From positions 1-64,000 of the forward strand of contig NZ_VAWA01000005.1 of the NCBI RefSeq assembly GCF_005771565.1: a stretch of DNA of 64,000 nt. The letters are read 5' to 3'. This DNA is from Nesterenkonia sphaerica. Its GTDB lineage: Bacteria > Actinomycetota > Actinomycetes > Actinomycetales > Micrococcaceae. A program made the position numbers and the translations under genes. Under the pieces are notes generated by a model. It ran no database searches and was not told where the DNA came from. It saw nothing but the letters and a program-made list of their open reading frames with translations. Position 1 is the first letter of the stretch. Every line of letters begins with the position of its first letter. This document shows, piece by piece, positions 34,013 through 36,198 of this stretch.

Positions 34013-34855
34013 GTGAAATACCTGCCCGTCGCGCTCACCTCCGCGGTCAGCGCCGCCGCCATCGCATCTGCCTCCTGGCTGGGGGTTGCTGCGCTGCTGG
34101 TGGTGGTGTGTGCCCTGTGCGGTGCAGTGGCGCTGGGGTGGCCGCAGCTGATGGGCGTGACCGCAAGGAAGTCCCTCTCAGCTGTGATCATGGCTGCAGG
34201 CATCGTCGCTGCCCTGGGCGCAGCGGTGGTCAATCAGGTGGAGGCGCTGTTCTTCTGGTCCTCAGTGTCGCTGGCCTTCGGAGTCATGGTGGTCTTCGCC
34301 ATTCAGGTGTTGCGCGGATCTGGCCGACCGCATCGGCTCGAGTCGACTTTGGGAGCATGCACCGGGGTGGTCATCACCACCACCGCAGCGGGGTGGATAG
34401 CCGGTCTGCGGTATCCGGCCGGAATGATGGAAACTGCCAACGGGGACGGACTCTCAGGGCTGCGGGTGCGCGGTCTCGTGCCTTATGAAGACTGGGAATT
34501 CTGGGGTGCCACTGGTCCGGGCGGAGAACTTTCCGTGGTGGCGCTCTCGGCATTTGTTATGTGCGTCGGCACAGCGGTGGCTTGTGTGCCCGGCCGAGAC
34601 GCGCTGGTGCTGCCCCTGGTGGTTCTGGCCTCGGCGGCCACGTCCATCACCGTTGCGCTGCTGTGGGGCGAGCTGACCCTGCTCTTTGCAGGGGTGCTCG
34701 GCCTGGCCGGGGGAGTGCTGCTGGCCAGTTTCCGGCGGCTCCTCATCCTGCAGGGCCCCCCGGAGCAGCTGCTCTCCCGGCTGGCAGTGGGTGCGGCTCC
34801 CGTCGCAGCGATGGGCGCCCTGGTGTATTTCACAGAACGACTTCTCATCACTTAG
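34013..34855 (+). CDS. Polytopic membrane protein, unknown function
   Basis: I do not recognise this roughly 280-residue protein. It has seven or so hydrophobic segments, starting directly at the N-terminus (alanine-rich helix) and ending in VAAMGALVYFTERLLIT. A polar, possibly external loop near residues 125-165 contains RYPAGMMETANGDGLSG and PYEDWEFWGATG. It has no obvious enzyme motif. It is divergent from the GlnR-like gene. The start may be ATG 34004 or GTG 34013; GTG is favoured by AGGA at 34001-34004 at proper spacing. The 40-residue peptide and ygfZ follow in the same direction. Confidence 0.7.
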   Translation: MKYLPVALTSAVSAAAIASASWLGVAALLVVVCALCGAVALGWPQLMGVTARKSLSAVIMAAGIVAALGAAVVNQVEALFFWSSVSLAFGVMVVFAIQVLRGSGRPHRLESTLGACTGVVITTTAAGWIAGLRYPAGMMETANGDGLSGLRVRGLVPYEDWEFWGATGPGGELSVVALSAFVMCVGTAVACVPGRDALVLPLVVLASAATSITVALLWGELTLLFAGVLGLAGGVLLASFRRLLILQGPPEQLLSRLAVGAAPVAAMGALVYFTERLLIT

Positions 34856-34861
34856 TTCCGC

Positions 34862-34873
34862 TAGGATGGCCTC
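34862..34873 (+). promoter_or_regulatory. -10 box for a leaderless small-peptide transcript
   Basis: TAGGAT (34862-34867), six bases, then the ATG at 34874. The spacing equals that at murB, mshD and the GNAT gene, and no Shine-Dalgarno sequence is placed correctly. The promoter would drive the peptide gene and the coupled ygfZ. Confidence 0.5.
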
Positions 34874-34996
34874 ATGAGTGACGCACAGATTCTTGCGCTG
34901 GAGGTCTTCTTCATCGGCCTGCTGGTCCTGTCCGTGATTACGATCAGCTGGATCGGCTTCGTGGTGCTCTCCCGCCTGTTCAAGGGACAGCGCTGA
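34874..34996 (+). CDS. 40-residue single-helix membrane peptide
   Basis: This short gene encodes a 40-residue peptide: a polar start (MSDAQ), one long hydrophobic helix (about residues 7-33, rich in Leu, Val, Ile and Phe with one Trp), and a basic end (RLFKGQR). It is probably an inner-membrane peptide with a cytoplasmic C-terminus. It has a matching -10 box six bases upstream and its stop TGA overlaps the proposed CTG start of ygfZ by three bases, so its translation may be needed to start ygfZ. I know no family name. Its features look like a real micro-gene rather than chance. Confidence 0.6.
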   Translation: MSDAQILALEVFFIGLLVLSVITISWIGFVVLSRLFKGQR

Positions 34997-36198
34997 TCGC
35001 CACCCCGCGCACCTCACCCCTGCTGGGCCGCGCCGGCGCGGTCGCGGCCACGGGGCCGGACGCTGGAACAGCCGCGCACTACGGCAGTCCCACCCGAGAG
35101 CAGCGTGCCCTGGAGGCCGGCTCCGCAGTGGTGGACCTCTCCACTCGTGCGGTGGTGACCGTGTCAGGCCCGGACCGGCTGAACTGGCTGACCACTCTCT
35201 CCTCCCAGCAGGTGACCGACCTGCGCGCGGGAGACTGTTCGGAGCTGCTGCTGCTGGACATCGCCGGCCGCATTGAACACGCCCCGGCCATCGTGGACGA
35301 TGGCGAGACCGCATGGCTGATTACCGAAGCCAGTCACGGCCCCGCTCTTCGCCAGTGGCTGGAGTCCATGAAGTTCGCCCTGCGGGTGGAGGTCGCCGAG
35401 CGCACTGACGACTATGCCGTGCTGGGCAGTACGGCCGCGCTTCCGGAGTCCCTGCCCTCCACCCCGGCCGCGCAGTGGACCGACCCCTGGCCGCAGCTGG
35501 GGCCAGGCGCTGAGTCCTACGCAGCCACCGAGGAGGCTGACCATCCTGGCAAGGAGTTCAGCTGGCACCTGACCCTGGTACCCCGGGAACAGCTCGACGA
35601 CGCCGTGACGCATCTGGAGAGCCAGGGCTGGCTGCTCGCCGGGGCCATGGCAGCCGAAGCGCTGCGCATTGCTGCCTGGCGGCCCCGACTGGCTTTCGAC
35701 GTTGATGCCAAGGCCATTCCCCACGAGCTGGACCTTATCCGTACCGCGGTACACCTGAGCAAGGGGTGCTACAAGGGGCAGGAGACGATCGCCCGGGTGC
35801 ACAACCTGGGGCATCCTCCCCGCCGGCTGGTGTTTCTGCACCTCGATGGTTCCGAGCACACTTTGCCCGCCCCTGGCGCCGACGTGCTGGCGCCCGCCAC
35901 CACCGCCGACCGTGCTGCACTGGCAGCAGAACGCGCGGTGGGAGTGGTCACCTCGGTGGCCCGCCACCACGAGGCCGGCCCGATTGCGCTGGCCCTGGTC
36001 AAACGCAAAGTGGACCCAGAAGCAGCACTGGTGGTGCGGGACACTGCCCCCGCCGAGGCTGATGATGCCCCGCAGGAGCAGCCCGCCGAGCCTGTGTTCT
36101 ACGCGGCGTCCCAGGAGGTCATTGTGCGCCCGGACGCGGGGAAGACCGTGGGTCGCCCGCAGGGGGATTTCCTCCGCGGGCCCCGGCGCCAGCCCTAG
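34993..36198 (+). CDS. ygfZ: YgfZ/GcvT-like folate-binding protein, non-canonical start
   Basis: YgfZ proteins bind folate and help maintain or repair certain Fe-S enzymes. The signature KGCYKGQETIARVHNLGHPP lies at the expected place, and the C-terminal barrel ends in a long acidic/proline linker. Homology-like N-terminal sequence (TSPLLGRAGAVAA, AHYGSPTREQRALEAG) precedes the first GTG (35128) by 44 codons. Between the upstream stop (34879) and 35128 no ATG, GTG or TTG exists in this frame. CTG 34993, overlapping the TGA of the 40-residue gene and five bases after AAGGGA, or ATC 34996 at eight bases, are the likely starts. NirB and other Fe-S enzymes nearby are possible clients. Confidence 0.85.
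   Translation: MIATPRTSPLLGRAGAVAATGPDAGTAAHYGSPTREQRALEAGSAVVDLSTRAVVTVSGPDRLNWLTTLSSQQVTDLRAGDCSELLLLDIAGRIEHAPAIVDDGETAWLITEASHGPALRQWLESMKFALRVEVAERTDDYAVLGSTAALPESLPSTPAAQWTDPWPQLGPGAESYAATEEADHPGKEFSWHLTLVPREQLDDAVTHLESQGWLLAGAMAAEALRIAAWRPRLAFDVDAKAIPHELDLIRTAVHLSKGCYKGQETIARVHNLGHPPRRLVFLHLDGSEHTLPAPGADVLAPATTADRAALAAERAVGVVTSVARHHEAGPIALALVKRKVDPEAALVVRDTAPAEADDAPQEQPAEPVFYAASQEVIVRPDAGKTVGRPQGDFLRGPRRQP

Follow-up and report, generated by a model that had tools for sequence, protein, structure and literature searches.

A membrane peptide ORF and a probable CTG start of ygfZ overlap at a CTGA junction in Nesterenkonia

The window analyzed here is a 64,000-nt stretch of the genome of Nesterenkonia sphaerica, whose genus is placed by the NCBI taxonomy in the Micrococcaceae, Micrococcales; all features described below are on its forward strand. 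An ORF for a 40-residue membrane peptide (34874–34996; ATG at 34874, stop TGA at 34994–34996) is followed by ygfZ, a CAF17-like gene of 401 codons counted from a CTG codon (34993–36198). The proposed CTG start (34993–34995) and the TGA of the peptide ORF share the four nucleotides CTGA (34993–34996), and the ygfZ frame is −1 relative to that of the peptide. AAGGGA (34982–34987), a Shine–Dalgarno (SD)-like sequence, is located within the Lys–Gly codons of the peptide. An earlier note on this DNA had placed it five bases ahead of CTG and eight bases ahead of the next codon, ATC (34996–34998), and these spacings proved exact. That note had also described YgfZ-like sequence extending 44 codons upstream of GTG 35128 and a frame free of ATG, GTG, and TTG from the in-frame stop at 34879 to that GTG; the former corresponds to the 44 codons from ATC to GTG, and the latter was confirmed base by base. 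ATGA couplings are common in the window, as had been claimed: nine junctions of −4 nt were found between called neighbours on the same strand, with ATG (seven), GTG (one), or TTG (one) as the start. A sequencing error at the junction was ruled out because six species agree.

The protein read from 34996 matched the YgfZ family (TIGR03317, E = 8.1e-28; 97.1 bits versus the curated cut-off of 49) and PF01571 (E = 1.6e-16), and it contains the conserved KGCYKGQE stretch. A profile search of the PDB returned GcvT and YgfZ entries, and the alignment profile matched the T-protein 1yx2 from the helix at residues 33–41 onward; a plain phmmer search of the PDB gave no match. In the structure model, the mean pLDDT was 72.5 with parts below 50, and the block values were 71–93 for residues 1–50 and 83–94 for residues 11–60.

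The peptide is of the single-helix membrane type (Kyte–Doolittle 19-residue maximum, 2.7), and at E 0.1 it matched neither Pfam nor NCBIfam. Its profile gave one match per genome in 61/61 genomes, covering 32/32 genera of the family, and matches in 27 of 59 genomes sampled from the order; dN/dS of the peptide was 0.03–0.27 in 15 pairs. A −10-like box, TAGGAT (TANNNT; 34862–34867), stands 6 nt upstream of the peptide ATG and is a probable promoter for a leaderless mRNA. Of 86 distinct loci, 85 carry TANNNT 6–8 nt ahead of the peptide ATG; the background in the same loci is 116/6134 ATGs preceded by TANNNT at 5–8 nt. These 86 loci were kept from 109 with the peptide, after removal of duplicates, loci with no near ATG, and loci with too little upstream sequence. 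A further 18 loci all had TANNNT 6–7 nt before a candidate start. In Mycobacterium tuberculosis, 73% of primary transcription starts are reported to have TANNNT centred 7–12 bp upstream (PMC3898074). This spacing would put the 5′ end at or beside the ATG, and the peptide mRNA is thus probably leaderless. For the ORF preceding the peptide (34031–34855; 274 amino acids from 34031), neither Pfam nor NCBIfam gave a match at E 0.1; several relatives share a YFTER-like end upstream of the peptide.

The peptide was located in 109/110 relative loci; in the single exception (L028), the stretch ends before the peptide, which sits on another contig. Among the best 80 of 478 relatives, the gene order was peptide–nitrobindin–ygfZ in all 62 loci of Arthrobacter, Pseudarthrobacter, Paenarthrobacter, and Sinomonas, and so it was in the 24 Nesterenkonia loci, counted with duplicates, that lie outside one clade. 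Nitrobindin also directly follows the peptide in 18/18 further stretches, with ygfZ next within the stretch in 15 of them; these stretches were hand-picked from 61 family and 27 order matches, and the order matches G103, G141, G110, and G126 are among those omitted. Because this order recurs across relatives, peptide, nitrobindin, ygfZ appears to be ancestral. The peptide and ygfZ touch in 13 genomes, namely 12 of the 30 searched and N. natronophila, which form one clade (support 98). PF08768 (nitrobindin) was absent from exactly the 12 of 30 genomes with the peptide–ygfZ junction and present in the other 18, in one of which (G010) neither a ygfZ match nor a convincing peptide was found. Nitrobindin was likewise absent in N. 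natronophila, for which the 7-kb locus was searched. Loss of nitrobindin in one ancestor would have joined the ends and brought ygfZ directly behind the peptide, and because the intervening gene was lost, ygfZ would have been left in some species without an ordinary start, most likely with CTG.

Six of the 13 junctions are CTG-only (the window, N. natronophila, N. salmonea, N. haasae, N. alkaliphila, and N. sedimenti): no ATG, GTG, or TTG occurs in them from the TGA of the peptide to the conserved Ser-Pro-Leu-Leu of YgfZ. In five of the six, no canonical codon occurs back to the in-frame stop either. In N. sedimenti, a TTG lies in frame 45 nt upstream of CTG, inside the peptide in the codons for Gly–Trp, and this species is therefore the weakest of the six cases. 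In the remaining seven junctions, TGA is followed at 5 or 8 nt by a GTG in the CTG frame (N. ebinurensis, N. muleiensis, and N. alba) or at 4 or 7 nt by a GTG or TTG in another frame (N. massiliensis, bin114, G016, and G015). Thus, ygfZ is in the CTG frame in 6/6 CTG-only genomes and in 3/7 of the others, a difference that carries little weight given their shared ancestry. The CTG-only species occupy three positions in the tree, each adjoining a relative that carries GTG: a group of four that includes the window (support 100; with its sister N. muleiensis, 100), N. alkaliphila (100), sister to N. ebinurensis, and N. sedimenti (92), with G015 and G016. The deeper nodes within the junction clade are weak (40–67). 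The tree has 25 rows, of which three lack pfkA and seven lack the aminotransferase, and one species is included twice. CTG use may have had three origins, or it may be old, with GTG gained elsewhere.

Gene finders would ordinarily choose a downstream canonical codon, in the window GTG at 35128–35130, the first in frame and a normal start codon. We consider a start there, or at a CTG of the Leu–Leu pair, very improbable and judge GTG 35128 to be internal (codon 46). The six CTG-only species differ in where a canonical codon first follows CTG, namely at codon 46, 49, 22, 22, 17, and 47. Moreover, the residues that such a start would remove are conserved. In an alignment of 22 proteins (the window, 16 other Nesterenkonia, two Arthrobacter, and three Sinomonas), 14 residues encoded before 35128 are invariant: S8, G15, A16, V17, D23, H29, Y30, G31, P33, E36, Q37, R38, L40, and G43, including the HYG and EQR stretches. 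A YgfZ lacking the first 44 residues, which the earlier note had named as evidence against its reading, was found in none of the 21 aligned relatives. The rows L041 and L044 begin a few codons upstream of their GTG or TTG, and two sequences, N. muleiensis (insertion) and Nesterenkonia sp. PF2B19 (frame break), were left out. Across the 39 codons running from Ser-Pro-Leu-Leu to the Asp-Leu-Ser strand in the six CTG-only species, dN/dS was 0.07–0.33 in 15/15 pairs, and differences at codon positions 1, 2, and 3, summed over the pairs, numbered 104, 88, and 306. From this sequence evidence, the stretch upstream of 35128 is protein coding and under purifying selection. A start at 35128 would also delete the modeled helix 33–41. 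The open stretch before the first canonical start is 82 codons long, but its length was dropped as evidence: 2 of 55 other called ORFs of at least 100 amino acids have a longer one, where calling was crude and based on composition.

Some irregularities were observed in the excluded and related loci. In N. muleiensis (L035, about 2865–2990), a few dozen extra residues are inserted in frame within the N-terminal part of YgfZ. In PF2B19 (L015 and L047), the N-terminal YgfZ frame seems broken near Ser-Pro-Leu-Leu. The ygfZ matches of G015 (C1:2559961–2561100) fall into four pieces; this genome is 62% complete, and its sequence is perhaps poor.

CTGA is kept in 6/6 CTG-only species, whereas the next codon reads ATC in the window and N. 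sedimenti, AGA in three species, and AGC in one. When CTG, ATC, ATT, ATA, ACG, AAG, and AGG were considered as near-cognate starts, CTG was the sole such codon before Ser–Pro in N. haasae and N. alkaliphila. Ser–Pro itself is written with four different codon pairs across the six species, suggesting that translation begins upstream of it. On these sequences, CTG is the sole start candidate common to all six. The earlier note had proposed a start at CTG or ATC; the relatives support the first alternative, and the second fails as a general start. The window species itself could use ATC 34996 in place of CTG: ATC has a spacing of 8 nt from AAGGGA, occurs also in N. sedimenti, and ranked above CTG (0.2% versus 0.03%) in a mycobacterial reporter selection of SD sequences, in which CTG was not enriched (PMC4633059). 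Because ATC is replaced in four species, its use would be limited to the window species and N. sedimenti, while CTG could serve all six, and we regard a start at ATC as unlikely.

The last codon of the peptide is CGC in 29/29 distinct Nesterenkonia loci, including 13/13 junction genomes (L028 was left out of these counts); the arginine six residues before it uses CGC in 20/29 loci, and in 22 window genes CGC makes up 45.5% of the arginine codons. The synonymous CGA, CGG, or CGT would yield ATGA, GTGA, or TTGA, none of which was seen, and that no junction genome has made this single change weighs against CTG as the start. The invariance of CGC is not taken as proof of selection for CTG because the nitrobindin-bearing loci may just avoid an out-of-frame start. 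At the end of the peptide ORF, CAGCGCTG (34988–34995) forms a perfect 8-base palindrome that is invariant in 29/29 distinct Nesterenkonia loci; it is also present in some Sinomonas loci and overlaps in part the 3′ arm of the hairpin described below.

AAGGGA is kept in the relatives, and the Lys-Gly-Gln residues are likewise kept where ygfZ is distant; conservation of the motif is therefore confounded, since it follows from the coding of Lys-Gly-Gln. A hairpin (34963–34994) is predicted from the last 32 bases of the window peptide ORF through the CT of CTG. It lies inside the coding sequence of the peptide, and both the GGGA of the SD-like sequence and the CT of the CTG codon would be paired through its 3′ arm (34984–34994). 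All six CTG-only species share this predicted hairpin (−8.7 to −15.8 kcal/mol), with z values of −1.9, −2.0, −3.0, −3.2, −1.2, and −0.7, modest in four. A similar hairpin is predicted in several GTG-bearing junction species and none in bin114 and G015. It is not predicted in 5/5 hand-chosen nitrobindin-bearing relatives (z +0.7 to +1.3). Opening of a hairpin by the ribosome on the upstream gene is the usual design of translational coupling, and an inhibitory hairpin of this kind is predicted here. The coupling of ygfZ to the 40-residue membrane peptide, already proposed in the earlier note, is strongly supported by the gene order and by the predicted hairpin over the SD-like bases.

Here, we propose a mechanism in which ygfZ starts at CTG 34993 by termination–reinitiation, a reading to which we assign a probability of about 0.7. 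Transcription from the −10 box at 34862 would yield a leaderless mRNA for the peptide, in which the hairpin is predicted to mask the SD-like bases together with the CT of CTG. Ribosomes reading the peptide would open the hairpin, terminate at TGA 34994 without being released, and step back one base, whereupon the initiator tRNA would restart translation on the overlapping CUG. The loss of nitrobindin would have placed ygfZ behind the peptide, leaving some descendants with GTG or TTG 4–8 nt past TGA and others without. CUG is a poor start codon by published accounts: it is quoted as 0.024% of bacterial starts with 0.86% of the AUG yield (PMC11497404), is rare in reconstructed start switches (PMC5622118), and, in place of AUG at the start of an upstream small ORF, strongly reduced the expression of the gene behind it (PMC11260477). 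These accounts, like the mycobacterial selection, bear on fresh initiation, not on restart at a stop. The report on reinitiation in oocytes (PMC4648390) was set aside. A relaxed initiator tRNA was also considered and is unsupported; the initiator-type anticodon arm, sought by a sequence pattern, is ordinary in 30/30 genomes, with one copy with G–C pairs in each.

The main rival to reinitiation at CTG is a −1 fusion, the third possibility of the earlier note, in which suppression of TGA and a −1 slip at CGC–UGA would produce YgfZ fused to the membrane helix and tethered to the membrane; once nitrobindin was lost, a minor leak at NUGA overlaps would then have become the only way of making YgfZ. 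This reading requires no start codon and would explain why a canonical start was not regained. The AUGA pair of the same geometry, uPPE2–PPE2, indeed yields a frameshifted product, but according to the cited text, it is only minor, and the pair operates mainly by reinitiation (PMC11260477). The −1 frame is open across nearly the whole peptide in the window, but it is also open for at least 44 codons in nitrobindin-bearing Nesterenkonia loci, and as it is open in control loci without adjacent ygfZ too, this point was dropped as evidence for fusion. No X XXY YYZ heptamer is present in the peptide frame in 6/6 CTG-only species, and ygfZ is in another frame in 4/13 junction genomes. No consistent pseudoknot-free fold was predicted over 131–137 nt around the junction in the six species (z −2.2 to +1.0); the downstream fold of N. 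haasae reaches z −2.2 and resembles that of N. salmonea. We therefore consider the fusion improbable, though less so than a start at ATC.

The preferred reading, reinitiation at CTG, can be compared with other genes and gene pairs. The window protein is an ordinary YgfZ/CAF17-like (TIGR03317) member by sequence and would be unusual only in its start. infC, with ATT, is a conserved gene kept on a non-canonical start and is autoregulated through that start. The ygfZ junction resembles infC in that a conserved gene would be kept on a weak start across species, and differs in that the start is a CTG overlapping a stop codon. CUG is deemed almost useless as a bacterial start codon, yet a conserved gene in three places of the tree seems to have little else. 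If this is true, a just-terminated ribosome may use start codons rejected by a fresh one, gene loss can force such a start, and gene finders would truncate proteins that begin in this way.

The stop/start overlap that characterizes termination–reinitiation pairs is found in CTGA, whereas the canonical start of such pairs is absent: no ATG, GTG, or TTG is present at the junction in the six species. The peptide–ygfZ pair works like a termination–reinitiation pair in which CTG takes the place of the canonical start. Among the matches listed from the open-licence literature, no paper on such a CTGA junction was found. The junction is similar to the ATGA and TGATG reinitiation overlaps, as described in PMC6728339 and PMC10666635, in its 4-nt stop/start overlap, the SD-like sequence within the upstream gene, and the −1 frame, and it differs from them in that the overlapping codon is CTG. 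The uPPE2–PPE2 pair of M. tuberculosis likewise combines an actinobacterial small ORF with a larger gene through an NTGA overlap, and its small ORF is described as acting as a landing pad (PMC11260477). That pair differs in having an AUG start and a small ORF behind a B12 riboswitch (PMC11260477), whereas the small protein in Nesterenkonia is a conserved membrane peptide, its mRNA is probably leaderless, and the pair appears to have arisen by gene loss.
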